Of a stretch of DNA of 64,000 bases, positions 32,488 through 46,089 are shown one piece after another. This stretch comes from Sphingobium sp. Lineage in GTDB: Bacteria > Pseudomonadota > Alphaproteobacteria > Sphingomonadales > Sphingomonadaceae. The stretch is taken from positions 434,001 to 498,000 of the forward strand of contig SPEL01000002.1 in assembly GCA_009360885.1 (NCBI GenBank). The letters run 5' to 3'. Position 1 is the first letter of the stretch, and every line of letters starts with the position of its first letter. The position numbers and the translations under genes are program-made. Under the pieces are notes generated by a model that was not told where the DNA came from, searched no databases, and saw only the letters and a list, made by a program, of their open reading frames with translations.

Positions 32488-33630
32488 GTGTTTAATCATG
32501 ATTCTGCGCCCTCCCCCGGCTTTCCTGCTTCCTCCGTGGGGCGGCTGGTCATCAAAATCGGCTCCGCCCTGCTGGTGGACCCGGATGGTGCCATCCGTAT
32601 TGATTGGTTGCGGGGCGTTATAGAGGATATTGCCCAACGCCACGCAGCTGGCCAGCAGATCATTGTCGTGTCATCCGGCGCGATCGCATTGGGCGCGCGT
32701 CGTCTCAGCCTTCCCAAGGGCGGGCGTGGGTCACTGGATGATGCGCAGGCCGCTGCGGCAGTCGGGCAGATTGCGCTATCCCACCATTGGGCAGGTTTAC
32801 TGAAGGATCAGGGCATTACCGCTGGGCAAATGTTGCTGACGCTGGATGATCTGGAGCATCGCCGCCGCTATCTCAATGCCGCCGCCACGCTGGAAAGGCT
32901 GATGGCTTTGCGCGTCGTTCCTGTCATCAATGAGAATGACAGCGTGGCAACAACCGAAATCCGCTTTGGCGACAATGATCGTCTCGCCGCCCGTATCGCA
33001 CAGGCCGCTAAGGCCGATGCTGTGGCGCTGCTTTCCGACGTAGATGGCCTCTACACCGCTAATCCACATAGCAACCCTGATGCGAAACTGGTGCGGGATG
33101 TACGCAAGATAGACGCCCATATCACGGACATGGCTGATGGAGGTTCCGGTTCTGGCATGGGATCGGGCGGCATGGCGTCGAAAATCGCGGCAGCGAAAAT
33201 CGCGACCAGCGCAGGGGCACATCTTGCCATACTATCGGGCCTGCCAGAGCGTCCGTTATCCGCATGGGAAAATGGCGCAAACGGCACAATTTTCCACGCG
33301 CAGCCCAGTAAAGGCGCGCGGCAGAACTGGCTGGCGGGAAGGCTGACGAGCAAAGGCCGCATTATGGTGGATGCAGGCGCAGAAAACGCCCTGCGCGATG
33401 GCCGCAGCCTGCTGCCTGCTGGCGTCACGCAAGTGGAGGGACGCTTTGTGCGCGGCGACGTGGTGGACATTATCGGCACAGATGGCCGCCTCATTGCCCG
33501 TGGTCTCATTGAATATGATGCGGAAGAAACCACGCTCATTGCGGGTAAACGTAAAAGCGACATAGCGGAACTGTTGGGCCAGCCCGTGCGTCCTGCCCTC
33601 ATCCACCGCAATCATATGGTGCTGTTATGA
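32488..33630 (+). CDS. proB: Glutamate 5-kinase
   Basis: Phosphorylates glutamate to gamma-glutamyl phosphate, the first step of proline synthesis. The amino-acid kinase domain opens with RLVIKIGSALLV and contains VVSSGAIALGARR and VINENDSVATTE; a PUA domain occupies the last 80-90 residues. The start used is GTG at 32488 (380 aa), which gives a short N-terminal extension; a GTG at 32536 just before the kinase domain is the alternative. The stop overlaps the next gene (ATGA), an odd partner in metabolic terms. Confidence 0.95.
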   Translation: MFNHDSAPSPGFPASSVGRLVIKIGSALLVDPDGAIRIDWLRGVIEDIAQRHAAGQQIIVVSSGAIALGARRLSLPKGGRGSLDDAQAAAAVGQIALSHHWAGLLKDQGITAGQMLLTLDDLEHRRRYLNAAATLERLMALRVVPVINENDSVATTEIRFGDNDRLAARIAQAAKADAVALLSDVDGLYTANPHSNPDAKLVRDVRKIDAHITDMADGGSGSGMGSGGMASKIAAAKIATSAGAHLAILSGLPERPLSAWENGANGTIFHAQPSKGARQNWLAGRLTSKGRIMVDAGAENALRDGRSLLPAGVTQVEGRFVRGDVVDIIGTDGRLIARGLIEYDAEETTLIAGKRKSDIAELLGQPVRPALIHRNHMVLL

Positions 33631-34592
33631 GCGTTCTGTCCCCTGATGAAGCCGCGAATGTTCGCACTATTTTACCGCGCCCGACGCCCGCCCGCATTAT
33701 CGCCATCACTGGCGCGACCGGCTTTGTCGGGACGGAAACGCTGGAACAGCTATTGGCAGCAGACTTTTCCGTGCGTGCGCTCACCCGCCGCCCACAACAG
33801 GAGCGCGATAGCGTAATATGGGTGGAGGGCGCGCTTGATCGGCCCGAAACGCTCGACGAACTCGTAACCGGCGCGGATGTCGTCCTCCATATCGCAGGGG
33901 TGGTGAATGCGCTGGATCGTGCCGGATTCGCCGCCGGAAATATTAGCGGCACCCAAAATGTCATCGCCGCGATGGAAAAGGCAGGAGTAAACCGCCTCAT
34001 CCATATTTCATCACTGGCCGCCCGCAACCGCGACCTTTCCAACTATTGCTGGTCAAAGGCGCTGGCAGAAGACGCCGTGCTTGCCTCCTCGCTCGCATCG
34101 ACAATCATCCGTCCTCCCGCCATTTATGGCCCGCGTGATACGGAGTTCAGCGAATTGCTGCGGATCGCCCGCTATGGTGTGCTGCCGGTGCCTGCTATAG
34201 GTCGCGCTTCGCTCCTCCACGTGCGGGACCTTGCGCGCCTGCTCGTCAAATTGTGCGGAAATGAGGGCGACAAATATATCGGCGCATTATGGGAAGTGGA
34301 TGACGGCACGCCCGGTGGCCTCTCTCATAAGGAACTGGCTGCCGCATTTGGCCGCGCGTTTGGAAAGAAAATACGCGCCCTTCCCGTGCCATCTGCCGCT
34401 ATCATGGGCATAGCCGGGCTGGACCGCTTCATTCGCAAACAGGGCGCCAAACTGACGCCAGACCGAGCCCGCTATATGTGCTTTCCGGACTGGGTCGCCA
34501 ACACCGCCCGTACGCCCCCGGCGGATTTCTGGGCCGCCACCATCACGCCCGATATTGGCCTTGCCGAAATTGCGGCCCCGTTTCGCCAGTAA
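33627..34592 (+). CDS. NAD(P)-dependent epimerase/dehydratase, CerR-like ceramide reductase candidate
   Basis: An extended short-chain dehydrogenase (321 aa). The Rossmann motif is ITGATGFVG (about 24-32), and the catalytic YxxxK appears as YCWSK at about 138-142. In Caulobacter an epimerase-annotated protein next to spt and its ACP reduces the 3-keto group during ceramide formation (CerR), and the order here, SDR then ACP then SPT, matches that neighbourhood. It starts inside the proB stop (ATGA), so it may be expressed from the proB transcript. Assignment to ceramide reduction is by context. Confidence 0.8.
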   Translation: MSVLSPDEAANVRTILPRPTPARIIAITGATGFVGTETLEQLLAADFSVRALTRRPQQERDSVIWVEGALDRPETLDELVTGADVVLHIAGVVNALDRAGFAAGNISGTQNVIAAMEKAGVNRLIHISSLAARNRDLSNYCWSKALAEDAVLASSLASTIIRPPAIYGPRDTEFSELLRIARYGVLPVPAIGRASLLHVRDLARLLVKLCGNEGDKYIGALWEVDDGTPGGLSHKELAAAFGRAFGKKIRALPVPSAAIMGIAGLDRFIRKQGAKLTPDRARYMCFPDWVANTARTPPADFWAATITPDIGLAEIAAPFRQ

Positions 34593-34724
34593 AAAACGCA
34601 ACTGCCGCCTATAGAGCCAAATACAGCGTCTTTTGGGCCATATACTGCCCTTTTCCCGCCTTATTCCCTTGCCAAATGAGCGTCAGCAGGCGCATATCGC
34701 CCATCCCATCAGAAAGAGAAGAGC

Positions 34725-34970
34725 ATGACCGACCGCCAGCAAATTTTTGACCAGATTGCCGCGCAAATCGCGCCTTTCAACAAAAAGGAAGTGGCCCTCA
34801 GTGACGCCACCACCTTCGCCGGTGATCTGGAATGGGACAGCCTGACTGTGATGGATTTCGTCGCCGCTATTGAGGATGAGTTTGACATCATCATCACAAT
34901 GAACATGCAGGCCGAAATCGAAACCGTAGGCCAGTTGGTGGATGCCGTGGAAAAGCTGCGCGCCGCCTGA
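34725..34970 (+). CDS. Dedicated acyl carrier protein for serine palmitoyltransferase
   Basis: An 81-aa acyl carrier protein with the phosphopantetheine serine S39 in the EWDSLTVMDF motif and the usual acidic helix II (AAIEDEFDI). It lies 80 bases upstream of spt on the same strand. Such ACPs near spt are known to supply the acyl group in Sphingomonas and Caulobacter. A purine-rich AGAGAAGAG precedes the ATG. Confidence 0.93.
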   Translation: MTDRQQIFDQIAAQIAPFNKKEVALSDATTFAGDLEWDSLTVMDFVAAIEDEFDIIITMNMQAEIETVGQLVDAVEKLRAA

Positions 34971-35050
34971 AACCATCTTTTCCGGCGGTATCATTCAGCG
35001 CCCCTTCATACCCCGGTTCATAATTCGCGCCCATATTTATAAGGGACCCC

Positions 35051-36262
35051 ATGAAAATGGCTGATCTGTTTAGCAAATTCGACCCCCTGATCGCAGAGCG
35101 TGAGGCACTGCTGGCCACCGGCGTGCGGGATCCGTTCGCCATCGTGATGGAGGAGGTGAAATCCCCCACCCTTGCGGTTATCAAGGGCAAGGAAACCATC
35201 CTGCTGGGCACCTATAACTATATGGGCATGACCTTTGACCCGGATGTAGTGCAGGCGGGCAAGGATGCTCTGGATAATTACGGCGCTGGCACGACCGGCA
35301 GCCGGGTTTTGAACGGCACCTATCAGGGCCATAAAGAGGTTGAGGATGCGCTGAAGGAATTTTACGGCACCTCCTCCGCCATGGTGTTCTCCACCGGTTA
35401 TCAGGCCAATCTGGGCATGATCTCCACCCTGGCTGGCAAGGGCGATTATGTGGTGCTGGACGCCGACAGCCATGCCTCCATCTATGATGGCTGCTTCCTT
35501 GGTGATGCAGAAATCGTGCGTTTCCGTCACAATAGCGTCGAAGACCTCGACAAGCGCCTTGGCCGCCTGCCTGCCGATGCGCAGAAGCTCGTCGTGCTGG
35601 AAGGCGTCTATTCGATGCTGGGCGATATCGCGCCGCTGCCCGAAATGGTTGCCGCCATCCGTAAGCATCCCAATTGCATGATCCTCGTTGACGAAGCGCA
35701 CGGGATGGGCTTTTTCGGCCCGAATGGTCGCGGCGTTTATGAGGAACAGGGCGTTGAGAAGGACATCGACTTTGTCGTCGGCACTTTCTCGAAATCCGTC
35801 GGCACAGTGGGCGGCTTCTGCGTTTCCAACCACCCGAAGTTTGAGGTCATGCGCCTCGTTTGCCGCCCTTATGTGTTCACCGCCTCGCTGCCACCCAGTG
35901 TCGTAGCGACTGCCGCCACCTCCATCCGCAAGCTGATGCACGCAGGTGAAAAGCGCGCCCATCTGTGGGAAAACAGCAAGCGCCTGCATAAAGGGCTGGT
36001 TGATCTGGGCTTTAAACTGGGGACAGACAGCCCACAATCGGCCATTATCGCCGTTATCCTGACAGACCAGACACAGGCCGTGGCCATGTGGCAGGCGCTG
36101 TTGGAATTGGGCCTCTATGTTAACATGGCCCGCCCGCCAGCAACGCCCGCTGGCACATTCCTGCTGCGCTGCTCGCTCTGCGCCGAACATAGCAGTGAAC
36201 AGGTCGGACAAATCCTCAGCATATTTGAGGCAGCAGGCAAAGCCACCGGCGCGATTGCCTGA
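35051..36262 (+). CDS. spt: Serine palmitoyltransferase
   Basis: A PLP-dependent alpha-oxoamine synthase that condenses serine with an acyl thioester to 3-ketosphinganine, the committed step of sphingolipid synthesis. The PLP lysine is K248 in GTFSKSVGTVGG; NYMGMTFDPDV, YGAGTTGSRVLNGT and DEAHGMGFFGPNGRG match the soluble homodimeric bacterial enzyme. The N-terminal MKMADLFSKFDPL is typical for Sphingomonas SPT rather than for KBL or BioF. It is the strongest marker that the organism makes sphingolipids in place of, or beside, LPS. Confidence 0.95.
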   Translation: MKMADLFSKFDPLIAEREALLATGVRDPFAIVMEEVKSPTLAVIKGKETILLGTYNYMGMTFDPDVVQAGKDALDNYGAGTTGSRVLNGTYQGHKEVEDALKEFYGTSSAMVFSTGYQANLGMISTLAGKGDYVVLDADSHASIYDGCFLGDAEIVRFRHNSVEDLDKRLGRLPADAQKLVVLEGVYSMLGDIAPLPEMVAAIRKHPNCMILVDEAHGMGFFGPNGRGVYEEQGVEKDIDFVVGTFSKSVGTVGGFCVSNHPKFEVMRLVCRPYVFTASLPPSVVATAATSIRKLMHAGEKRAHLWENSKRLHKGLVDLGFKLGTDSPQSAIIAVILTDQTQAVAMWQALLELGLYVNMARPPATPAGTFLLRCSLCAEHSSEQVGQILSIFEAAGKATGAIA

Positions 36263-36273
36263 ATGGAGCGCTA

Positions 36274-36306
36274 AGCGGGGCTGGTCAATCAACGGACCGC
36301 CCCGCT
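36274..36306 (+). terminator. Hairpin after spt
   Basis: Arms AGCGGGGC (36274-36281) and GCCCCGCT (36299-36306), with a further GGTC/GACC inner pair, start 11 bases after the spt stop; TTTCCC follows. A likely transcription end for the SDR-ACP-SPT group. Confidence 0.7.
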
Positions 36307-36385
36307 TTCCCAAATCGGTGGTCAGGAGAAGCGGCTCGCCGCTCTATTCCCACACTTCCTTAACAGATAATATTGCATTACTAAG

Positions 36386-38443
36386 GTGAACATGGCGTTC
36401 ACACTGTCAGATGAGCAGGAAGCCCCCTTCTGGCGGCGAAAAATAGACCGGGCGATGCCTTTCTTTATCGGCAGCGCGCTCATCGTTGCTATGATGGCGC
36501 TCCTCTATTTCGCCAGCATGGCCTCCCGTTATCAAAGCGATGCCTTACAACAGCAGCAACGCAGCTATGAAGTTGCTGCCGTTGCCCGCCGCCTTGATAG
36601 CCTGATCGCCAAGGCGGAATCTTCGCTCGCGCGCTATGTTATCAGCATGGATAAAGATATTGGCCGCCAATATCAGGACCAATGGGCCAAGGCCGGAAAG
36701 GAACTGGCGACCCTGCGACGGGAAACCCGGCATGACCCGGTGCAACAACCGCTGATCCAGCAACTGGGCCAAGCCTATCATCAACGCGGCGCTACACTAT
36801 CGGAAATTGCGCTGCGCACTACGTACGATCAGAAAAGTGCTTCGCTCGGCAAATTTTACGAGGCCAGCCGCGCTGACAGCCTGACGCGCATTAATGCTCT
36901 GCTGGAACAGGTTATCCGCACCGAAAATGACCGGTTACGTCGATATAATCGCAATGTCGCCATTGCGGGCAATAGCGTGCAACAGATGGATAACACATAT
37001 CGCATGGTCGGCATCATCCTGATAATGATGATATTGCTGCTCATCTGGTTTGCCCGCACCATCATCCACGAACGGCGGCAAGAACAGCGGATAATCGACG
37101 ATGAATATTTCCGGGCGCTAAAGCTGGAGGCCGCTGTGGCCGACCGCACCACCGAATTGCAACTCGCTTATGCCAAGCTGCAACGCGAAACTGAGGAGCG
37201 CGCACGCGCCGAACAGAGCCTGCGTCAGGCACAAAAAATGGAGGCAGTGGGCCAGCTAACCGGCGGTATTGCTCATGATTTCAATAACATGTTGGCAATT
37301 GTTGTCGGCGGGCTGGAACTGGCGAAACTACGCGCCAAGGGGCAGGATGAAGTTATCCGCCATATCAACAATGCTATGGAGGGTGCGAACCGCGCCACCG
37401 CCCTCACCCGCCGCTTGCTGGCCTTTGCCCGTGCAGAGCCAAATCTGCCTGCCGTGCTCGATCCGGATGACCTCATCCGTGACATGAAGGAATTACTCGA
37501 CCGTTCGATAGGCGATCAGATTAAGGTACAGCTCGATCTGTCGGCCGGAGACTGGACCATTCATGCCGATCAGCATCAGCTCGAAAATGCGCTGCTCAAT
37601 CTGGCGGTCAATGGCCGGGATGCAATGGAAGGACGCGGTCTGCTGTTGCTGCGCACAAGGCAGGAACGGCTGCGCGCTGGCGAGATTGAGAAATGTCCGG
37701 CGGGTGAATATGTTTGCCTATCGGTAACGGATGATGGTTGCGGGATGACACCCGAAGTACTGGAACGCGCCTTTGACCCCTTTTTCACGACCAAAGCACT
37801 GGGTAAAGGAACCGGCCTTGGTCTCAGCCAGATTTTCGGCTTTGTCGGGCAGGCCGGCGGGGGCATTCGCATCCTTTCCAAGCCAGCAATGGGTACAGAG
37901 GTTCAGCTTTACCTGCCACGCCACCGCAGCAGAGCCACCGCAGAAAGAAAAAGCACCTATACAGCAGTCAGCAAAGCCGTCTTGCCGCCACAATTCTCCC
38001 CTCCGGCGCGTGACGACACCCTGCCCCCTGCAAAAGAGCCATCAGCCAGTTCGGTCTACCCACCCCGCGCCGGACGGCATATATTGCTGGTTGAGGATGA
38101 CCCCCGCGTTCTGGCGCAAACCCGCTCTGCCTTGATTGAGCTAGGGTATCAGGTTGTTAGTTGTGACCACCCTGCCAAGGCAGAAGCCCTGCTGCGCGAC
38201 AATAGCAATATTGAGATCATCCTCAGCGACGTATTAATGCCGGACATGAGCGGCCCTGAAATGGTTGCCGCCTTGCCCAGCGAATATCGTGGTATTCCCG
38301 TAGTCTTTGCCACTGGTTATGCGGGCGACGTAACGGATAACAGCATGTTTGCGGGCCATAGCATATTACGCAAGCCCTATACCCTCAAAGCGCTGGAACA
38401 GAAGCTGATAGAAGCATTGGCCGCCTCTGCCCCATCACTCTGA
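36386..38443 (+). CDS. Hybrid sensor histidine kinase with C-terminal receiver
   Basis: A 685-aa membrane kinase. Two membrane helices (about 26-46 and 208-225) flank a helical periplasmic domain of some 160 residues, probably a four-helix CHASE3-like sensor. The HisKA motif GGIAHDFNNML puts the histidine at about 297; the ATPase domain has DDGCGM and KGTGLGLSQ; a receiver domain fills the last 120 residues with the aspartate in ILSDVLMPDMSG. The start may be GTG at 36386 or, with better spacing from AAGG, ATG at 36392. It sits between spt and the lipid-kinase operon, but a role in lipid control is a guess. Confidence 0.92.
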   Translation: MNMAFTLSDEQEAPFWRRKIDRAMPFFIGSALIVAMMALLYFASMASRYQSDALQQQQRSYEVAAVARRLDSLIAKAESSLARYVISMDKDIGRQYQDQWAKAGKELATLRRETRHDPVQQPLIQQLGQAYHQRGATLSEIALRTTYDQKSASLGKFYEASRADSLTRINALLEQVIRTENDRLRRYNRNVAIAGNSVQQMDNTYRMVGIILIMMILLLIWFARTIIHERRQEQRIIDDEYFRALKLEAAVADRTTELQLAYAKLQRETEERARAEQSLRQAQKMEAVGQLTGGIAHDFNNMLAIVVGGLELAKLRAKGQDEVIRHINNAMEGANRATALTRRLLAFARAEPNLPAVLDPDDLIRDMKELLDRSIGDQIKVQLDLSAGDWTIHADQHQLENALLNLAVNGRDAMEGRGLLLLRTRQERLRAGEIEKCPAGEYVCLSVTDDGCGMTPEVLERAFDPFFTTKALGKGTGLGLSQIFGFVGQAGGGIRILSKPAMGTEVQLYLPRHRSRATAERKSTYTAVSKAVLPPQFSPPARDDTLPPAKEPSASSVYPPRAGRHILLVEDDPRVLAQTRSALIELGYQVVSCDHPAKAEALLRDNSNIEIILSDVLMPDMSGPEMVAALPSEYRGIPVVFATGYAGDVTDNSMFAGHSILRKPYTLKALEQKLIEALAASAPSL

Positions 38444-38477
38444 AATCTGAATTCTGAACAAAAATTGACCGTTTAAC

Positions 38478-38543
38478 GCATCGTTTGATGCTTAGAGCAG
38501 TTTCAGATTCATCTAATGACCCAATCTGCTTGGGAAATTGCTC
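38478..38543. repeat. REP-like double hairpin between convergent genes
   Basis: A small stem GCATC-GTTT-GATGC is followed by a larger one with arms GAGCAGTTTC (38495-38504) and GAAATTGCTC (38534-38543) and an inner AGATT/AATCT pair. It lies between the convergent hybrid kinase and Tam41-like genes. The GAGCAGTTTCAGATT type of sequence is common in alphaproteobacterial intergenic repeats, but only one copy is seen here. Confidence 0.5.
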
Positions 38544-38555
38544 CAGAGCCGGCCC

Positions 38556-39476
38556 CTAGCGGACAGCCTTGCTACGCATCAGTTTTGGCACCAGCGTTAC
38601 CGCCGCCAGTAACGGATGGCGCCGCTGCCATGGGGTGATTTCAATCTGAGTGCCAGCATGGCGGTTGATCTTCCATGCCAGATAATCAATGCCACCAGCA
38701 AAGGTGAAGCTGGCCTTGGCGAGCCGCGCAACACTCAGCCTTTTCCCACGGCGCTGCAATAACCGCCATCGTCTGGCGTTGTCGGTACGCTGCGCCTCAC
38801 TGACCGGTGCGGCAGGCCTCACCACTTCATCGGCCACCGCAGCATTAAACAGCGCCTGATAGGCTTCCGGTGCGCTATCAACGATGGAGGCATTACGTCC
38901 TTTGCGCTCAGCGCGTAATTCCGCGCCATAGGTCATCGCGAAACCAGCCTCGAACAAGGCGCGGCTGTTATGCCGATCCTGCGCCCCCACCAACGGCAGA
39001 GCAAGATTCAGCAAAGTCGGCGCGGCTTGCGCTACGGCCTGTGCCGTTTTTTCCCGCGCCGCATCATCCGCCGCCCAGACGAGCCGGGACGGCTGCGCAA
39101 AGCGCGCCCAGACGGAAACATTATCTGCCTCTGGTCCGCACAGGCGTGTAAAATCATCCTCGCTCAGCACCGCATATTTGGCGCTTAAGCCTTTATATTC
39201 CATTGGAAAAACATTGGGCGGAATGAGTCTATTCGCCCGCGCCAGCCATGATTTATCATAAGCCGCTTCATAATCCGAAACGATCAGATAAAAATCGAGC
39301 ATCAGCCCATCAAGCTGCTTTTCCCGCAGGCAGCTACCATAAAACAGCACCGATCGGGCCGCCTGAGGATGCCGCGCCGCAACCGCCGCCGCCATTTCGG
39401 TGACTTTCGGGTCAACCGGCTGCGTCATTTCCGCCGTCACAGTGCGCGGAAGCACCTTTCCTGCCAGCCCCGTCAC
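38556..39476 (-). CDS. Tam41/MMP37-like cytidylyltransferase candidate
   Basis: A 306-aa soluble protein. It carries a nucleotidyltransferase-like FYGSCLRE followed by MLDFYLIVSD, then AKYAVLSEDDF, ARFAQPSRLVW and, near 190-215, MTYGAELRAERKGRNASIV. This order resembles the mitochondrial phosphatidate cytidylyltransferase Tam41, which makes CDP-diacylglycerol from phosphatidate and CTP. It is read by eye, so remote similarity is the limit of the claim. The gene starts at GTG 39476, 17 bases after the lipid kinase. Kinase followed by cytidylyltransferase suggests that a phosphorylated lipid is activated with CTP. Confidence 0.6.
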   Translation of the reverse strand: MTGLAGKVLPRTVTAEMTQPVDPKVTEMAAAVAARHPQAARSVLFYGSCLREKQLDGLMLDFYLIVSDYEAAYDKSWLARANRLIPPNVFPMEYKGLSAKYAVLSEDDFTRLCGPEADNVSVWARFAQPSRLVWAADDAAREKTAQAVAQAAPTLLNLALPLVGAQDRHNSRALFEAGFAMTYGAELRAERKGRNASIVDSAPEAYQALFNAAVADEVVRPAAPVSEAQRTDNARRWRLLQRRGKRLSVARLAKASFTFAGGIDYLAWKINRHAGTQIEITPWQRRHPLLAAVTLVPKLMRSKAVR

Positions 39477-39493
39477 AGATTATACCACTTCAA

Positions 39494-40453
39494 TTAAGCA
39501 GCAAGGCGCAGGAACGGCACCGGCGGCGTGGATTTCAGTACGATCGGACGGCCATTATCCGCTTCGAAAATCTCGCCATCCAATATGACGCTGCTATGTT
39601 CGCCCTCTATGCGGATGACATCCCCCTGCTCCAGATGGATGCCCTGCACTTCCTTTGAACCAAAGCGACCCAGCAGGCTCATGAACAACATGCGCAGCAC
39701 CGCAGACGGGCTGTTATCTACCGCCATCAGCTTCAATCCGCCACCAGAAGGCTTTGCCCCCAGCAGCAATCGTTCCAACGTGGTAACAATCAGAACCGAA
39801 AAACGCCCGGCCAGTTGATCGTTCCGAATCATCGAAATGGAAACTGGCCGCGCCGCAGGTGGCATATATTTACCGCGGATACCGAAAATCACCGATGCCA
39901 GCACCGCTATCGCCGTCAGCACATGGGAAATGGTGTTGGAAAGACCCAGCGGATAAATTTTATTCCGGCAATAGAGGATAGAATCAGCCAGCCCCGCGCC
40001 ACCGAGGAACATGCCCAATACCGGGCGGCTGGTCGCCTCACCATCGGATAAAGCGATTAGTTCACGCGAAACGACATGGCCCTCGACGCCATTTTTGGCG
40101 ATGTCCACAATACGTTCCAACGCCTTGATAGGGTCCCCCCTGCTACCCAGATCAAGCGCGATCAGATTCGTTTTGCCATTTGGCAACACCGCAACAGGGG
40201 GAACCTGCCCATCAAAATGGTTGCTGTGATACAGTTCCGTAAGGGTGGTCTGAACTGTCCCATCCCCTCCGTTTATGACGATGACGGTCGGCTTAACATG
40301 CGCGATCATCTGCATCGCCCGGCCAATCTGTTCCACCGATTCCACTTCATAATGGAAAATATCGGGGTGATTGGCGCAAAAACTGCGCACACGCGGCAAC
40401 AACTGGCGGTTGCCGGTGGAACGCGGATTCGAAAGGAGAGCGACAGCTACCAT
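39494..40453 (-). CDS. Diacylglycerol/sphingoid-base kinase family lipid kinase
   Basis: A 319-aa member of the DAGK catalytic family (with YegS and sphingosine kinases), which transfers phosphate from ATP to a lipid hydroxyl. It opens MVAVALLSNPRSTGNR and has the nucleotide motif NGGDGTVQTTL at 61-71 and VLPNGKTNLIALDLG, a variant of the GTxNDF block. The ATG at 40453 overlaps the upstream stop (TAATG), so it is coupled to the DUF2141 gene; longer open frame upstream is noise. The Caulobacter ceramide kinase CpgB belongs to this superfamily, and the setting near spt makes ceramide or a sphingoid base a plausible substrate. Confidence 0.88.
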   Translation of the reverse strand: MVAVALLSNPRSTGNRQLLPRVRSFCANHPDIFHYEVESVEQIGRAMQMIAHVKPTVIVINGGDGTVQTTLTELYHSNHFDGQVPPVAVLPNGKTNLIALDLGSRGDPIKALERIVDIAKNGVEGHVVSRELIALSDGEATSRPVLGMFLGGAGLADSILYCRNKIYPLGLSNTISHVLTAIAVLASVIFGIRGKYMPPAARPVSISMIRNDQLAGRFSVLIVTTLERLLLGAKPSGGGLKLMAVDNSPSAVLRMLFMSLLGRFGSKEVQGIHLEQGDVIRIEGEHSSVILDGEIFEADNGRPIVLKSTPPVPFLRLAA

Positions 40454-40968
40454 TATGGTTTCAACGGCCTGATGACCGTTCCCTTGCGATAGTTCATATA
40501 CACGTCGATTTTCTGGGTCTTCCACCCAATGGTCATCACAACCTTGTTGTAATCGGGCTGAAGACTGAAAATAGAGAGCGAGGGGTTGCGCGAAAAACCG
40601 CCACCATCGCTCCATCCGGATTTACCGTTACCATCAACATCATGGCGCACAGCAATGGCGTAATGATCGGCTTTAGGCAGGGCGACGCACACTTCCATCG
40701 GCCCACTGGCGGTCACGGGCAAGTCCACTCGTTTCAGATATTTGCCCTTAGCGAGAAAATCTGCCGAATTATTGCCATAAACCTGAACACGTAAATTGCC
40801 AGTGCGCGCCTTCAACGCAGGAACCCGCACCAGCACGGATGGCGAATCACCTTTGGCGCAGATATTGGCGTCTGGCCCTAATATCGTGGCAGAAGCAGGA
40901 GCTGTCGTCAGCGCCATTACGGCAAGAGCCGCAGCAAAGCTGGAACCGACAACCGAAAAATTCAACAT
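40453..40968 (-). CDS. Exported DUF2141 protein
   Basis: Start at ATG 40968 or 40977, giving about 171-174 aa. A signal peptide (hydrophobic run ending TAPASA) is followed by a single DUF2141 domain: LRVQVYGNNSADFLAKGKYLKRVDLPV, then CVALPKADHYAIAVRHDVDGNGK and the closing GFSRNP. The fold is a small periplasmic beta-sandwich of unknown role. It heads the operon with the lipid kinase and Tam41-like gene and is divergent from lptF, across about 120 bases. Confidence 0.88.
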   Translation of the reverse strand: MLNFSVVGSSFAAALAVMALTTAPASATILGPDANICAKGDSPSVLVRVPALKARTGNLRVQVYGNNSADFLAKGKYLKRVDLPVTASGPMEVCVALPKADHYAIAVRHDVDGNGKSGWSDGGGFSRNPSLSIFSLQPDYNKVVMTIGWKTQKIDVYMNYRKGTVIRPLKP

Positions 40969-41096
40969 GACCAGCACACTCCTCGAAGCTATAGCCCATT
41001 CAGTGCATTATATGCCGAATGGGAGGCTCCCCTGCTTTCCTGATCTTGATATGGGCTTCATTTGCGGCCAAAACATGGTGACGGGACGACGATAAG

Positions 41097-42350
41097 TTGA
41101 AACTATTGAGCGCAACTGACCGCTATATAGCCCGGCTGATTGCCGTTCCGCTTGCCGGGACGCTTGTTGTCGCCGCGATGCTACTGATTCTTGATAAGAT
41201 GCTGCGTCTGTTCGATTTTGTCGCGGCACAGGGCGGGCCAGTCAGCGTCGTATGGCGCATGCTGGCCAATATGATTCCCGAATATCTCTCGCTTGGCATT
41301 CCCATCGGGGTGATGCTGGGGATATTGCTGGCCTTTCGTCGACTCGCCCTTTCCTCAGAACTCGATGTGCTTCGCGGTGTGGGCTTGTCGCCCACACGAC
41401 TGATGAAGGTTCCCTATATCTTCACCATCGCTTTCGCCCTTATCAATCTGGCAATTGTCGGCTTCATCCAGCCTTATTCCCGCTATGCCTATGAAGGGCT
41501 GCAATATGAATTGCGTTCTGGGGCGCTGGGGGCATCCATCAAGGTTGGTGAATTCACCAATCTGGGCAAGGGCATGACCCTGCGTATAGAGGAAAGCAGA
41601 GACCGGGGCCGCGATCTTCACGGCATATTTGTGCGGGTTGATAAGATGAACAGCCTTGCCGAAGGGGAAGGTCAGGTACAAAATAAGATTAAGGATCAAT
41701 CCCTTGCAGTGACAGCAGCGCGGGGAACCTTCATGGCGACGGATGACCCGGATGTCATCATTTTACGCCTGACAGATGGCGTTATGGTCCAACGATCAGA
41801 TAAGATCGCCACCCCACGCATTCTCAGTTTCTCCAGCCATGATCTGCCCATTGACCTACCCAAGATCGAGAATTTCCGGGGCCGGGGTGATGCGGACCGC
41901 GAACTGACCCTGCCGGAACTGGTACGGCTGAGCGCAGCGCCCGGAACCGATCTGGCGATGCGGTATGAAATGCGCGCCAATTTCCATTTCCGTATGGCAG
42001 AAGTAGCCATGATGCTCCTGCTGCCGCTGGCCGCGCTGGCCTTTGCGATTCCTCCCAAGCGCTCTACCTCGGCGCTGGGCGTCTTCCTCTCCATCGTGTT
42101 CATCGTTACCTATCATAAGGTCAATCAATATGCCGAGGATATGGGGGCCGCCGGACGTATTGACCCGATAATCGCCTTATGGGTGCCCTTCTTTGCATTC
42201 GGCGCACTGATTTGCTGGATGTATTATGTCGTCGCGTACAAGCCCGGCGGACAACCTATCAGCGCGCTGGAAGCCGTGTTTTCCAAAACCACGCGCTGGG
42301 TCGTCAAGGGTTTGCAATCTGTCCGCAAGCGCCTTGGGCATAAGATTTAA
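41097..42350 (+). CDS. lptF: LptF-like permease subunit (YjgP/YjgQ family)
   Basis: A 417-aa inner-membrane protein with three N-terminal helices, a central periplasmic beta-jellyroll (about 140-285) and three C-terminal helices, as in LptF of the LptB2FG complex that extracts LPS from the inner membrane. SLGIPIGVMLGILLAFRRL and the coupling segment SELDVLRGVGLSPTRLM are typical. The start is TTG at 41097; the frame closes 18 bases upstream, and no better start exists near the first membrane helix. Sphingomonads usually lack LPS, so the cargo may be a glycosphingolipid. Confidence 0.92.
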   Translation: MKLLSATDRYIARLIAVPLAGTLVVAAMLLILDKMLRLFDFVAAQGGPVSVVWRMLANMIPEYLSLGIPIGVMLGILLAFRRLALSSELDVLRGVGLSPTRLMKVPYIFTIAFALINLAIVGFIQPYSRYAYEGLQYELRSGALGASIKVGEFTNLGKGMTLRIEESRDRGRDLHGIFVRVDKMNSLAEGEGQVQNKIKDQSLAVTAARGTFMATDDPDVIILRLTDGVMVQRSDKIATPRILSFSSHDLPIDLPKIENFRGRGDADRELTLPELVRLSAAPGTDLAMRYEMRANFHFRMAEVAMMLLLPLAALAFAIPPKRSTSALGVFLSIVFIVTYHKVNQYAEDMGAAGRIDPIIALWVPFFAFGALICWMYYVVAYKPGGQPISALEAVFSKTTRWVVKGLQSVRKRLGHKI

Positions 42351-42368
42351 GGGAAAGAAACAGCCTTC

Positions 42369-43469
42369 ATGCTGCATCAATTTTTTCCATCCCGCCGTCT
42401 GGCCCTTTATATGGCACGGACCTTCCTCATCCGCAGTTTTGCGGTGCTGGCAATGCTGGTCATTGTGCTGATGACTCTGGACCTTTTGGGTGAGAGCGGC
42501 ACTGTTCTCGCTTATCCGGGTAATGGCGAAGCTGAATTATGGCGCTATGTTGGCCTGCGTGCGCCACAGATTGTTGCCCGATTTCTGCCTTTTTCGGTTC
42601 TGCTTGGCACTTTGCTTACCCTGACGACAATGAACCAGAATAGCGAGATCATCTCGATGAAGGCGGCGGGCCTTTCCGCGCATCAGATATTGGCGCCGCT
42701 TATTCTTGCCGCGCTCGGTATTGCGGGGATTAGCTACACATTTAACGAGCGCATCGTTACCCGCGCAAGCGCCACGCTGGATGCATGGGAATCGGTCGAT
42801 TTTGGCCCCATCCCCCGCGATAGCGGCATTAAAACCAATGTGTGGGTGCGGGATGGTAACAACCTCATTACCGCTGGTGTCATAACTGGTCGGGGCGACC
42901 AGGTGGTGTTGCGCGATGTCGAAATATTTAACCGGGTGAACAACCAACTGGTCAATATCGTTCGCGGGCAGACCGCCCGATATGATCCGCAAAATCATGA
43001 CTGGATATTGGAAAAGGCCAGTAATTTTGACGTCAATCGGGGAACGATACAGGAAATCCAGTCTGCGCGGGGCGGGAAGAACATTCGGCCTGAACAGTTC
43101 ACACTGGCCAAGGTAGACCCGGACGGATTGACCTTCATGGAACTTCGCGCAGCCATTGCTGATCTAAAAGATGCAGGGCGGCCCACATTGTCGTTAGAGG
43201 CCAGCCTGTGGCATAAAATCTCCGGCCCGCTCTCTGCGTTGTTGATGCCGATCTTGGGTTCAGTCGCAGCTTTTGGCCTTGCGCGCTCTGGTCAGCTTTT
43301 TGTACGCGCTGTCATGGGTATGGCGCTGGGCTTTGCCTATTTTGTGGTGGATAATTTCGCACTCGCTATGGGCAATCTGGGGGCTTACCCCCCCTATCTC
43401 GCCGCATGGGCACCCTTCTTCCTATTCTTCTTGCTAGGGGAAACGGTGCTGGTGCGTACAGAGGAATAA
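42369..43469 (+). CDS. lptG: LptG-like permease subunit (YjgP/YjgQ family)
   Basis: A 366-aa partner of LptF with the same six-helix plus jellyroll layout. FLPFSVLLGTLLTLTTMNQNSE and ISMKAAGLSAHQI contain the groove-lining helix and the coupling helix that contacts the LptB ATPase. It follows lptF by 18 bases. No lptA, lptB, lptC or lptD is seen in the window. Confidence 0.93.
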   Translation: MLHQFFPSRRLALYMARTFLIRSFAVLAMLVIVLMTLDLLGESGTVLAYPGNGEAELWRYVGLRAPQIVARFLPFSVLLGTLLTLTTMNQNSEIISMKAAGLSAHQILAPLILAALGIAGISYTFNERIVTRASATLDAWESVDFGPIPRDSGIKTNVWVRDGNNLITAGVITGRGDQVVLRDVEIFNRVNNQLVNIVRGQTARYDPQNHDWILEKASNFDVNRGTIQEIQSARGGKNIRPEQFTLAKVDPDGLTFMELRAAIADLKDAGRPTLSLEASLWHKISGPLSALLMPILGSVAAFGLARSGQLFVRAVMGMALGFAYFVVDNFALAMGNLGAYPPYLAAWAPFFLFFLLGETVLVRTEE

Positions 43470-43497
43470 GCGCCTCACCCACCCCGCCACCGCCCAC

Positions 43498-43534
43498 AAA
43501 AAAGGCCGCTTCCACATCCGGGCGCGGCCTTTTT
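43498..43534. terminator. Bidirectional terminator between lptG and the desaturase-like gene
   Basis: Arms AAAAAGGCCGC and GCGGCCTTTTT with a 14-base loop. A- and T-runs at both ends allow it to stop transcripts from both convergent genes. Confidence 0.9.
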
Positions 43535-43556
43535 GATATGTAGATCAGGGCTAGGA

Positions 43557-44657
43557 TCAACCCTGTTTATGGCCACCCATGGTCGCCTTAGCGAGACGCC
43601 CCACCAACATAAACAAACCCGGATAGCTTGCCTGCTCATAGGTAGAATTCAACCCCAGACGCTCCTCAAGCCGGCGGTGCGCCAACCCCAGAGAGTGATA
43701 AGGCAGGCTAGGCAGCAAATGGTGCAGAGCATGATAGCGCAGGCCTACAGGAGCCCATAAAGGCGCCAGTAACGAAGGAGGCGGCACATTCACCGAGTCG
43801 AGATATTGGGCGGTGACGGTCATCGCCTCCCCTTCATTTTCCCATAAATGCGCGACCAGCGTGCGAAGCTGGTTCAATACCGCCACGCCCGAAAGCACCG
43901 CAGCCCAGACCAGCAGCGGCTTCCAACCAACAAAGGCCACGCTGGACATCAGCACAATCGCCCAGACCATGCTGGCGCCCTCCTGCCAGAACCATTGCTG
44001 CTTCAGCGCACCTTCTGCCGGGCGACGGCGAAAGGCCGGGTTAATCGACAGGGCCGAATATTTTTCGGCCACCAGACGGCGAAAAGGCGGAAAAATCAGG
44101 CCCAGCGGCGTCAATATGCCGAAACGCAACAGCACACCCACCGGGGCCAGCAACGCCACGAGGATAAACACCGGCAGCGACCATGGCTTCATCAGAGCGA
44201 GGGGGAGATATTCCGGATCCTCCACCGTGCCATAACGGATGCGCTGATGGTGCAACGTATGCACCCCTTCATAAAGGAAAGAAGGAATGAGCAGCGGCAC
44301 ACCCACGAGCGCGTTCCAGCCGAAACGGAAACCGGGCAGCGCCCCGTTACGCACATGGGTTAACTCATGGATGAAGCCCAGCGCCCGATAGAGGCCCAGA
44401 ACCGCCACCACACCACACAGCAGCGCCAATGCCCAGTTATCAGCCAGTATCGCACCGGCCAGCCCGATATAGCCAATAAAGGCCGATGCCAGCATATCCG
44501 GCCAGTAAATTTCTGGCCTTGCCTTTGATATATCGCGCGTCAACTCTGCGGCGGCGCGCAGCATCGTCACATCATCGGGGATGGAGGAAAGCGGCGGCTT
44601 TGCGGCTTGCTCCATCGCATCCGGAGTGGAGGCATTGATCCTGTTATAAGCTGTCAT
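43557..44657 (-). CDS. Fatty-acid desaturase-family membrane di-iron enzyme
   Basis: A 366-aa membrane protein with about six hydrophobic segments and the three histidine boxes of the desaturase/hydroxylase superfamily: HELTH (97-101), HTLHH (near 135) and HALHH (near 320). These bind two irons that activate oxygen to desaturate or hydroxylate an acyl chain. It is divergent from the ceramide-synthase-like gene and shares a 274-base gap with dense inverted repeats. Substrate is unknown; sphingomonad ceramides carry 2-hydroxy acids and unsaturated bases, so a ceramide precursor is conceivable. Confidence 0.88.
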   Translation of the reverse strand: MTAYNRINASTPDAMEQAAKPPLSSIPDDVTMLRAAAELTRDISKARPEIYWPDMLASAFIGYIGLAGAILADNWALALLCGVVAVLGLYRALGFIHELTHVRNGALPGFRFGWNALVGVPLLIPSFLYEGVHTLHHQRIRYGTVEDPEYLPLALMKPWSLPVFILVALLAPVGVLLRFGILTPLGLIFPPFRRLVAEKYSALSINPAFRRRPAEGALKQQWFWQEGASMVWAIVLMSSVAFVGWKPLLVWAAVLSGVAVLNQLRTLVAHLWENEGEAMTVTAQYLDSVNVPPPSLLAPLWAPVGLRYHALHHLLPSLPYHSLGLAHRRLEERLGLNSTYEQASYPGLFMLVGRLAKATMGGHKQG

Positions 44658-44718
44658 TGGCGTTCGTCCTGAAGGGCTTTTGCCCTCCCATATCCTTCAT
44701 CATGTCATTTGCCGAGGC

Positions 44719-44764
44719 GTCAGATGGTCCTATCTGACATTTCTGACATTTGCCTCAGAATGTC
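44719..44764. promoter_or_regulatory. Dense operator-like repeats in the desaturase / GNAT divergent gap
   Basis: Within 46 bases there are an inverted repeat GTCAGAT-6-ATCTGAC (44719-44738), a tandem direct repeat of TCTGACATT (44733-44741 and 44742-44750), and a second inverted repeat GACATT-8-AATGTC (44745-44764). The overlapping symmetry suggests a shared binding site for a regulator of both flanking genes. No other feature is seen in the gap 44658-44931. Confidence 0.55.
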
Positions 44765-44931
44765 CGTTAAAATCTAAATGTGCGCAGATCATGGCGTTAC
44801 TATGATAAATCTGAACCCACACTGATGCTGCCTGTGTTCACCCTTCGATTTGCTTTTCGCATAGATGGCTTGACAAGCTACCCCGAAAATACGCACTGCT
44901 ATCGCCCTTTCCGCATGAAAAAGGCACGAGC

Positions 44932-46089
44932 GTGACGCATAATGATCTGGTGATTACCCCCGTTTCCGGCAAGGCCGATCTGCGTGCTTTTGTCGATTTT
45001 GCATGGGACGTGTATCGGGATGATCCCCATTGGGTGCCGCCGCTGAAAAGCGAAGTGTACGGCATCATTCTGCCAGAAAAAAACCCGTGGTTTGAACATG
45101 GTGAGGCGCAATATTTCCTCGCCCGCCGGGGTGGCCGGGTAACAGGGCGGATTTCTGCGCATATCGACCGACTGGTCCTTTCCATGCCCCCTGAACAGGG
45201 CATGGGCCCCGGCACCGGCAATTTCGGCTTTTTCGAGGCACTGGACGAAGAAAGCGGGCAGGCTCTCATCACCGAGGCTGAGAAATGGCTGCGCGGTAAA
45301 GGCATGACACGGGTGATGGGGCCGATTTCCCTATCTATCTGGGAGGAGCCCGGCTTGCTCACCAAAGGGCATGACCATTCCCCCACCGTGATGATGGGCC
45401 ATCATCAACCGCGTTATGAAGGCTGGATAAAGAATGCCGGTTACAGCCCGATCAAAGAACTGCGTACCTATGAACTGGACATCACTAAGGATTTCCCGCC
45501 CCTCATTCAGCGTATCGTCCAATCGGGTGAAAAGAGTGACCGCATCACTATTCGCCGGGTCAATAAGAACAAATTTGATGCAGAGGCCGCTATCATCTTG
45601 CGTATATTGAACGACGCATGGGGCGAAAATTGGGGCTTTGTTCCGATTACCGACCATGAAGTCGCACATTTTGGCAAGCAATTGAAACCCATTGTGTTTG
45701 AGGATCTCATCCGCATTGCCGAATTGGATGGTGAACCTGTCGCGTTCATGATGACACTACCGGACCTGAATGAGGCCACGGCCTCTTTGAACGGTTCGCT
45801 CTTCCCCTTTGGCTGGGCCAAGCTACTGTGGTGGCTCCGTAAACCACAGGTTCGCACAATGCGCGTGCCGCTCATGGGTGTGGTAAAAAAATTGCAAGCA
45901 TCACGCATGGCCAGCCAGCTTGCCTTCATGATGATCGAATATATCCGCCGGGACGCCATCAGCAAATTTGGCTCAACACGCGGTGAAATTGGCTGGGTGC
46001 TGGATGATAATCAGGGCATGAACGCCATTGCCGATGCGATCGATAGCCATATCAACAAAATTTACACCATCTATGAGAAACCGCTGTAA
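44932..46089 (+). CDS. Large GNAT-fold acyltransferase, candidate bacterial ceramide synthase
   Basis: A 385-aa protein of the GNAT type that resembles E. coli YghO. The N-terminal domain contains FAWDVYRDDPHWVPPLKSE and FLARRGGRVTGRISAHID; the end reads FMMIEYIRRD and EIGWVLDDNQGMN. In Caulobacter the N-acyltransferase of ceramide synthesis (bCerS) is annotated as a protein of this kind, and this copy lies 9 kb from spt. It would N-acylate the sphingoid base with acyl-CoA. Start is GTG 44932 with AAAGG 8-12 bases upstream. The family is well supported; the substrate is inference. Confidence 0.72.
   Translation: MTHNDLVITPVSGKADLRAFVDFAWDVYRDDPHWVPPLKSEVYGIILPEKNPWFEHGEAQYFLARRGGRVTGRISAHIDRLVLSMPPEQGMGPGTGNFGFFEALDEESGQALITEAEKWLRGKGMTRVMGPISLSIWEEPGLLTKGHDHSPTVMMGHHQPRYEGWIKNAGYSPIKELRTYELDITKDFPPLIQRIVQSGEKSDRITIRRVNKNKFDAEAAIILRILNDAWGENWGFVPITDHEVAHFGKQLKPIVFEDLIRIAELDGEPVAFMMTLPDLNEATASLNGSLFPFGWAKLLWWLRKPQVRTMRVPLMGVVKKLQASRMASQLAFMMIEYIRRDAISKFGSTRGEIGWVLDDNQGMNAIADAIDSHINKIYTIYEKPL

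Follow-up and report, generated by a model that had tools for sequence, protein, structure and literature searches.

A sphingolipid synthesis and probable export locus in Sphingobium sp. with an spt-linked LptF–LptG pair

Bacterial sphingolipid genes have been described in Caulobacter crescentus and its relatives, and the papers on them are cited here from excerpts. These report a five-gene ceramide pathway, a kinase, the Caulobacter gene cluster, LptC2/F2/G2 as proposed transporters, and orthologues in Sphingomonas wittichii (PMC11324152, PMC9386255, PMC12275187). Caulobacter needs CC_1160 and CC_1161 to make ceramide phosphoglycerate, and the idea of one gene block that makes, phosphorylates and exports such lipids was proposed for that organism, with S. 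wittichii and Zymomonas orthologues listed (PMC11324152). Sphingomonas replaces lipopolysaccharide (LPS) by glycosphingolipid (PMC11087976), and two 2024 papers called the sphingolipid route to the outer membrane unknown (PMC11324152, PMC11087976). Here we analyse a comparable gene block in a 64,000-nucleotide stretch of Sphingobium sp. DNA (the window; assembly GCA_009360885.1, contig SPEL01000002.1, positions 434,001 to 498,000). Comparative sequence analysis leads us to put at about 0.78 the probability that this is a sphingolipid synthesis and export locus whose LptF–LptG pair (LptFG) exports sphingolipid and not LPS.

The block corresponds to Caulobacter CC_1164–CC_1154, a region already mapped to S. 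wittichii (PMC11324152). As in C. crescentus CC_1168–CC_1152, it holds counterparts of cerR, acpR, spt, the CDP-diacylglycerol-synthase-like cpgC, the kinase gene cpgB, lptF2/lptG2 and cerS in corresponding order. Unlike Caulobacter, the window carries a hybrid histidine kinase gene after spt and an FA_desaturase-family enzyme gene before bcerS, and neither aasR, cpgA (CC_1159), the phosphoesterase CC_1158 nor CC_1153/CC_1152 was recognised among the window open reading frames (ORFs) read. The search for aasR, cpgA, the phosphoesterase and cpgD found no candidate among 24 ORFs translated from 28.6–53.8 kb (19 of them scanned against Pfam), the remaining window and genome not being searched; likewise the locus showed no recognisable CC_1153, of the CPG2 pathway, in a search that did not extend to the remaining genome. 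In Sphingomonadaceae, aasR is located far away (PMC9386255). Caulobacter also retains LPS, unlike Sphingomonadales. The window further resembles S. wittichii Swit_3897–3908, where cerR, acpR, spt and cerS lie within 12 locus tags, the S. wittichii orthologues as a whole being described as scattered over six regions (PMC9386255, PMC11324152). In E. coli BL21, sphingolipid genes (yghO / aas-cerR-acp-spt / lptG-lptF) likewise stand beside a second LptFG pair, which directly adjoins spt (locus L090, 9921–12067).

Both Lpt genes of the window lie on the plus strand and share their equivalog assignments with LptB2FG of E. coli and Shigella (PMC6744409). LptF (41097..42350) scores 237.5 bits against a TIGR04407 cut-off of 230, and LptG (42369..43469) 290.9 against a TIGR04408 cut-off of 240. 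A survey of 118 Sphingomonadales genomes (at least 90% completeness requested; the window's own genome included, at 79.6%) gave these permeases their setting: neither LpxC nor LpxB, which stand for the lipid A pathway that would accompany an LPS exporter, was found in any of the 118, own genome included. E. coli and Caulobacter control genomes were positive for LpxC, LpxB, LptD and LptFG. Serine palmitoyltransferase (SPT) was found at E 1e-150 in 116 of the 118, the exceptions being one genome with a fragment only (G076, 387 bits) and one with no match (G014). LptD was likewise present in 116, and the LptF/LptG family PF03739 in 115, with exactly two matches in 101 and a single one in G077. 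The window's own genome has one SPT match at this cut-off and two PF03739 matches, equal to those in the window itself. Among the matches listed, SPT and one LptFG gene start less than 13 kb apart on the same contig in 77 of 108 genomes (27/56 in Sphingomonadaceae, 50/52 in other families).

The relation between lipid A and sphingolipid genes extends beyond the order. In 389 alphaproteobacterial genomes, LpxC was found in 340 and SPT (E 1e-150) in 23; LpxC occurs in two of the 23 SPT-positive genomes (G468, G476) versus 338 of the 366 others (Fisher p 3e-19, which ignores shared ancestry). This SPT cut-off proved too strict, as 17 of 28 LpxC-negative genomes scored SPT-negative became positive at 1e-80. 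At the relaxed cut-off SPT is present in 38 of 49 LpxC-negative versus two of 27 LpxC-positive genomes tested (G133 and G134; 27 of the 340), with a Fisher p of 2e-9 that again ignores shared ancestry. The E. coli control also matched at 1e-80; on NF047603, Kbl of E. coli K-12 scores 269 bits (E 7e-80) and the true SPT of BL21 428 bits. The 19 new positives (the 17 LpxC-negative genomes plus G133 and G134) scored 440–502 bits, and all 19 have an ACP (acyl carrier protein) or SDR (short-chain dehydrogenase/reductase) homologue adjacent. LpxC-negative SPT-positive genomes span 13 family codes, and several separate LpxC losses are likely, because five of these (f26, f32, f65, f67, f75) also hold LpxC-positive genomes. 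Ten of the 11 LpxC-negative genomes without SPT are at most 2.7 Mb in size; the other, G447, is 3.9 Mb.

LptFG copy number was counted as PF03739 matches in 36 alphaproteobacterial genomes. The four genomes with both LpxC and SPT (G468, G476, G133, G134) have 4, 4, 4 and 5 matches, corresponding to two pairs, one G134 pair being cut by a contig end. Exactly two matches above the cut-off were found in 11 of 14 genomes with SPT and no LpxC (G367 has four, G420 one at a contig end and G320 none). Two is also the number in 15 of 17 genomes with LpxC and no SPT found, where G131 has four and G137 one; the SPT test used the relaxed cut-off for 16 of the 17, and the strict one only for G121. G122 has neither LpxC nor LptFG. 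In the 19 regions around the new SPTs, LptFG lies in nine (G133, G141, G214, G232, G253, G259, G307, G350, G405); two of the ten regions without it, those of G174 and G134, are contigs shorter than 6 kb.

Phylogeny divides these permeases into two types. A quick tree of concatenated LptF and LptG was built from 56 pairs, among them the window pair and those of 20 of 40 fetched Sphingomonadales loci. It contained a 37-row spt-linked clade (SH-aLRT support 100) and an LPS-type clade with 16 rows (support 99); L107, L132 and L136 fell within the former and L115 stood alone. Left out of all trees were three loci lacking LptFG (L108, L111 and L116), L117 of G469 with its one gene, the split genes of G135 (L133 and L134), the second pair of G131 (L137) and the other 20 fetched Sphingomonadales loci. 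Pairs near the newly found SPTs are in no tree, that of G133 being the same pair as L136. A careful tree of 49 rows, from which the long branches L115, L090, L107, L136, L129, L128 and L122 were dropped, separated 35 spt-linked-type from 13 LPS-type pairs with 100/100 support, and the split recurred in 100% of 200 bootstrap trees. The window pair falls in the spt-linked clade. G468 has one pair on each side of the split, and the second pairs of G133 and G134 fell in the spt-linked clade though both genomes were then scored SPT-negative; SPT was later found in both. In G133 (L136, L178), an LpxC genome, the divergent SPT lies about 3 kb from the second LptFG pair. Unlike the window pair, the spt-linked pair of BL21 groups with canonical E. 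coli LptFG (SH-aLRT 99). Forcing it into the alphaproteobacterial clade was rejected (p-AU 0.02, a weak test on a long branch), which suggests that BL21 LptFG was recruited to its sphingolipid cluster independently.

The two types also differ at residues implicated in LPS binding. In a cryo-EM structure, D37, K40 and K41 of E. coli LptG touch the lipid A sugar, 4′-phosphate and core (PMC6744409), and our LptG numbering was checked against these cited residues. An acidic residue stands at position 37 in 15 of 16 LPS-type alphaproteobacterial rows versus two of 34 spt-linked rows; position 40 is basic in 14/16 versus 1/34, and position 41 in 14/16 versus 8/34. The window LptG has G, G and T at these sites, where LPS-type alphaproteobacterial LptG mostly has E, R and R. 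The positions of E. coli K34 and R136 did not separate the clades, that of K34 being acidic in all 50 rows. Because E. coli shows normal growth with the LptG double substitution K40E/K41E (PMC5548808), the difference at 37/40/41 is to be read as a correlation only.

Gene order across genomes places this pair in a recurrent setting. Scanning genome contigs with SPT yielded at least 596 loci, and the best 80 of these (hereafter named loci), nearly all with Sphingomonadaceae titles, were compared; homologue counts in them are lower bounds, some fetched stretches ending at contig ends. The ACP and SPT occur in all 80, the histidine kinase in 71, a Tam41-like gene in 49, the SDR, LptF and LptG in 43 each, obg in 42, proB in 39, the ceramide synthase bCerS in 38, the oxidase (the FA_desaturase-family enzyme) in 23, the lipid kinase in 20 and DUF2141 in 19. 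The consensus order is obg-proB-SDR-ACP-SPT-histidine kinase / Tam41-like-kinase-DUF2141 / LptF-LptG / oxidase / bCerS. Many Sphingobium loci keep only ACP-SPT-histidine kinase-Tam41-like grouped, and in two named loci (L075, L086) LptFG is inverted and upstream. Where spt is distant in Sphingomonadaceae (G012, G018, G023, G027), bCerS adjoins LptFG in all four fetched regions. Other alphaproteobacterial families have the same order with the histidine kinase absent. In one such locus, L105, kinase and LptF are separated by genes for a CDP-alcohol phosphatidyltransferase and a calcineurin-like phosphoesterase, which fit the published CC_1159 and CC_1158 of Caulobacter (excerpts of PMC11324152).

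The grouping is more than chance, since named Sphingomonadaceae loci and further families repeat its order. A first-pass annotation of the window had expected gene order to be conserved in other sphingolipid producers, and had read the block as making, phosphorylating, modifying and exporting ceramide lipids. Such conservation was found in other SPT-bearing genomes, from Sphingomonadaceae to further alphaproteobacterial families. Because of this recurrence the proposed function is supported at the level of sequence comparison, and for the export step the absence of LpxC and LpxB, the co-occurrence of SPT with LptFG and the LptFG clade speak in its favour. The genes it named (SDR, ACP, SPT, kinase, Tam41-like, LptFG, oxidase and a GNAT-type protein) were all recovered in place by Pfam/NCBIfam, BLAST or fold; its list had overlooked the histidine kinase (36386–38443) and DUF2141 (40453–40977) genes.

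The ceramide core begins on the plus strand with the SDR (33627..34592; Pfam NAD_binding_10/Epimerase), a candidate oxo-ceramide or 3-ketosphinganine reductase of CerR type. It is 32.4% identical over 299 residues to BL21 CerR (BLAST, E 2e-41), has a GxxGxxG motif at residue 29, and is linked to acpR-spt in the 43 named loci that hold it. The following AcpR-type ACP (34725..34970, plus; PP-binding) carries the phosphopantetheine serine in a DSL motif, is 28% identical to the BL21 ACP (BLAST) and precedes spt in 80/80 named loci. SPT (35051..36262, plus) scores 786.3 bits against an NF047603 equivalog cut-off of 670 and is 46.6% identical to BL21 SPT (BLAST). The 385-residue protein at 44932..46089 (plus), the GNAT-type gene product, matches no Pfam or NCBIfam family at E 0.001; it is nevertheless homologous over its full length to BL21 YghO (41.6% identity over 380 aligned positions, E 3e-95), which marks it as a bCerS of the YghO/CC_1154 type. 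These BLAST matches, and not trees, are the basis on which the SDR and GNAT keep their ceramide-family placement. By analogy, SPT would condense serine with the acyl group of acyl-AcpR, bCerS would N-acylate the product, and the CerR-type SDR would reduce it to dihydroceramide.

The next genes would act on this ceramide. The lipid kinase (39494..40453, minus; DAGK_cat, PF00781, scored on a longer ORF to 40615) probably starts at 40453, giving 319 residues, directly after the same-strand DUF2141 gene. It is placed by its domain and spt-linked position only, as a positional equivalent of the ceramide kinase CpgB/CC_1160, and may form ceramide 1-phosphate. The 306-residue Tam41-like protein (38556..39476, minus) is the corresponding equivalent of CpgC/CC_1161. 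Both are tied to their Caulobacter counterparts by position, because the L105 gene set fits the description of CC_1159 and CC_1158. CC_1161 has an InterPro hint of CDP-diacylglycerol synthase, and excerpts of PMC11324152 speculate on an NDP-activated ceramide.

The Tam41-like protein belongs to no Pfam or NCBIfam family, a PDB sequence search gave nothing useful, and a Tam41 sequence profile had no match in 20 members at a maximum E of 5 (HMMER filters drop most matches above 0.1). Its AlphaFold2 model (20 input sequences, pLDDT 87) nonetheless bore out the initial guess at its family: the best PDB match is the Tam41 CDP-diacylglycerol synthase 7ecd (E 7.6e-7, TM 0.53/0.58), then 6ig4 and 6ig2, and the next group, aminoglycoside nucleotidyltransferases, reaches a TM of about 0.31. 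Identity to Tam41 over the structural alignment is 14%, and we class the protein, which lacks a sequence-profile match, only as one that may work like Tam41. In an alignment of the window protein with 32 homologues, Y46 G47 S48, D61 F62, P86–V89 and K100 are each conserved in at least 95% of the sequences. The modelled fold is consistent with a candidate CDP-ceramide synthase, which with CTP would most likely convert ceramide 1-phosphate to CDP-ceramide, a headgroup donor. The term CDP-ceramide was not found in the literature searched, most subscription papers lying outside the search.

The oxidase (43557..44657, minus; PF00487), a candidate membrane diiron lipid desaturase or hydroxylase, has the His boxes HELTH, HTLHH and HALHH and may desaturate or hydroxylate the ceramide. 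Each of the 23 named loci where it was detected has it between lptG and bcerS. We compared this interval in picked loci from 18 Sphingomonadaceae, 17 other Sphingomonadales and 10 other SPT-positive alphaproteobacteria. The slot before bCerS holds the window-type oxidase in 17 of the 18 and an FA_hydroxylase-like gene in one; other Sphingomonadales have a flippase-like gene in 12/17 and an FA_hydroxylase-like gene in 6/17, and the remaining alphaproteobacteria an FA_hydroxylase-like gene in 10/10, with an additional flippase-like gene in 3/10. Pfam found FA_hydroxylase in all four such proteins scanned and Polysacc_synt in one of two flippase-like proteins. Outside the order, oxidase homologues (E 1e-8) occur in two of 29 SPT-positive genomes and none of 25 others (54 genomes). 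In one of the two, G170 (L100), the homologue lies between spt and the Tam41-like gene; because this locus also holds an FA_hydroxylase-like gene, the two enzymes may catalyse different reactions.

The finished lipid would finally be extracted from the inner membrane by the dedicated spt-linked LptF–LptG and passed onto the Lpt bridge towards LptD. In Sphingomonadales, where the lipid A genes searched for are missing, this would usually be the sole Lpt permease pair. The competing view of the pair, as ordinary LPS export machinery placed here by chance or as an exporter of another glycolipid or polysaccharide, can point to the NCBIfam labels, which name both proteins LPS export permeases above cut-off, to the one pair per genome that is also normal in LPS producers (the 15 of 17 above), and to SPT-positive genomes without linked LptFG. 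Several further observations sit poorly with sphingolipid export. More than two PF03739 matches occur in 13 of the 118 Sphingomonadales; LptFG was undetected (PF03739) in three that have SPT (G009, G021, G037); and LptD was not found in the window's own genome at its 79.6% completeness. LptFG lies outside the fetched stretch in 37 of the 80 named loci, with the kinase in just a quarter (20/80) and the Tam41-like gene in 49/80. No LptFG was found in the whole genome of G320, which has SPT, bCerS and no LpxC, nor within 19 kb around spt in four f55 genomes (G164, G379, G431, G479) and four others (G261, G288, G456, G488). There are therefore sphingolipid producers in which no Lpt permease is linked or detected. 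In addition, a Pfam scan of the locus ORFs recognised no known headgroup transferase. Against LPS as cargo stand the 0/118 counts for both LpxC and LpxB, the grouping of the window pair with spt-linked pairs of other families and not with LPS-type pairs, and the second LptFG pair kept by all four genomes found with LpxC and SPT. The first two led us to reject an ordinary LPS pair as the best reading, and we regard the competing view as a whole as very improbable.

For the lipid-modifying enzymes the question is one of substrate. DAGK_cat and Tam41 are glycerolipid-enzyme families, and the kinase/Tam41-like pair lies outside the spt block in many named loci, as would suit a route from diacylglycerol through phosphatidic acid to CDP-diacylglycerol. 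Homologues of both genes adjoin spt in other alphaproteobacterial families, and the Caulobacter equivalents CC_1160 and CC_1161 are those needed for ceramide phosphoglycerate (PMC11324152), which makes a glycerolipid substrate unlikely. We consider it doubtful, with a somewhat larger share of uncertainty, that the oxidase is a chance neighbour with phospholipid or free fatty acids as its substrate. The FA_desaturase family is broad, the AlphaFold2 model is poor (pLDDT 66.8), PDB searches gave no fold match at E 0.001 and nothing useful by sequence, and of the two homologues outside the order, that of G184 lies on a different contig from spt. The oxidase's recurrent place between lptG and bcerS, the restriction of the outside homologues to SPT-positive genomes, one of them beside spt, and the FA_hydroxylase gene that fills the same slot in other families argue for a ceramide substrate.

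Taken together, we lean towards a scenario with two old alphaproteobacterial Lpt permease types, which serve LPS and sphingolipid respectively. Lipid A would have been lost mainly in lineages with sphingolipid genes, the sphingolipid type would usually be the sole one in Sphingomonadales, exporting a ceramide lipid, and a Tam41-fold enzyme would make CDP-ceramide. If true, sphingolipid export could be tested cleanly in an order that lacks lipid A genes, since usually no LPS-type pair would mask the phenotype; the automatic label of LPS export permease would give the wrong cargo across Sphingomonadales; and a route to lipid A loss suggests itself, the export path for a substitute amphiphile being already present. 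PMC11324152, in excerpt, was the sole direct precedent found for a link between Lpt and sphingolipid, many relevant journals lying outside the literature search. Within the same bounds, the absence of LpxC and LpxB throughout the order, in combination with LptFG type and linkage to SPT, had no precedent and appears new.

The two genes missing from the first list also have homologues elsewhere. The CHASE3 hybrid histidine kinase (36386..38443, plus; HATPase_c, Response_reg, CHASE3) sits between spt and the minus-strand genes, and with its receiver domain it is a possible regulator of the sphingolipid block. Sphingomonadales and some other families conserve the gene for the small DUF2141 protein (40453..40977, minus; PF09912) between those for the ceramide-kinase candidate and LptF; the protein is a candidate periplasmic component. 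Flippase-like genes between lptG and bcerS include L160 11391–12911 (no Pfam match) and L103 11603–13171 (Polysacc_synt); they are candidate sphingolipid flippases, with none in the 18 Sphingomonadaceae intervals. In family f55, five SPT-positive, LpxC-negative genomes (L116, which is G320, and L180, L190, L192, L194) have bCerS, SDR and ACP beside spt. Locus L195 (G488) has two tandem SPT-like genes beside ACP, SDR, Tam41-like, kinase and bCerS homologues. A Sphingomonadaceae-like obg-proB-SDR-ACP-SPT stretch in a record titled Bacillus sp. 2B10 (L058) is probably contamination or a mislabelled entry.

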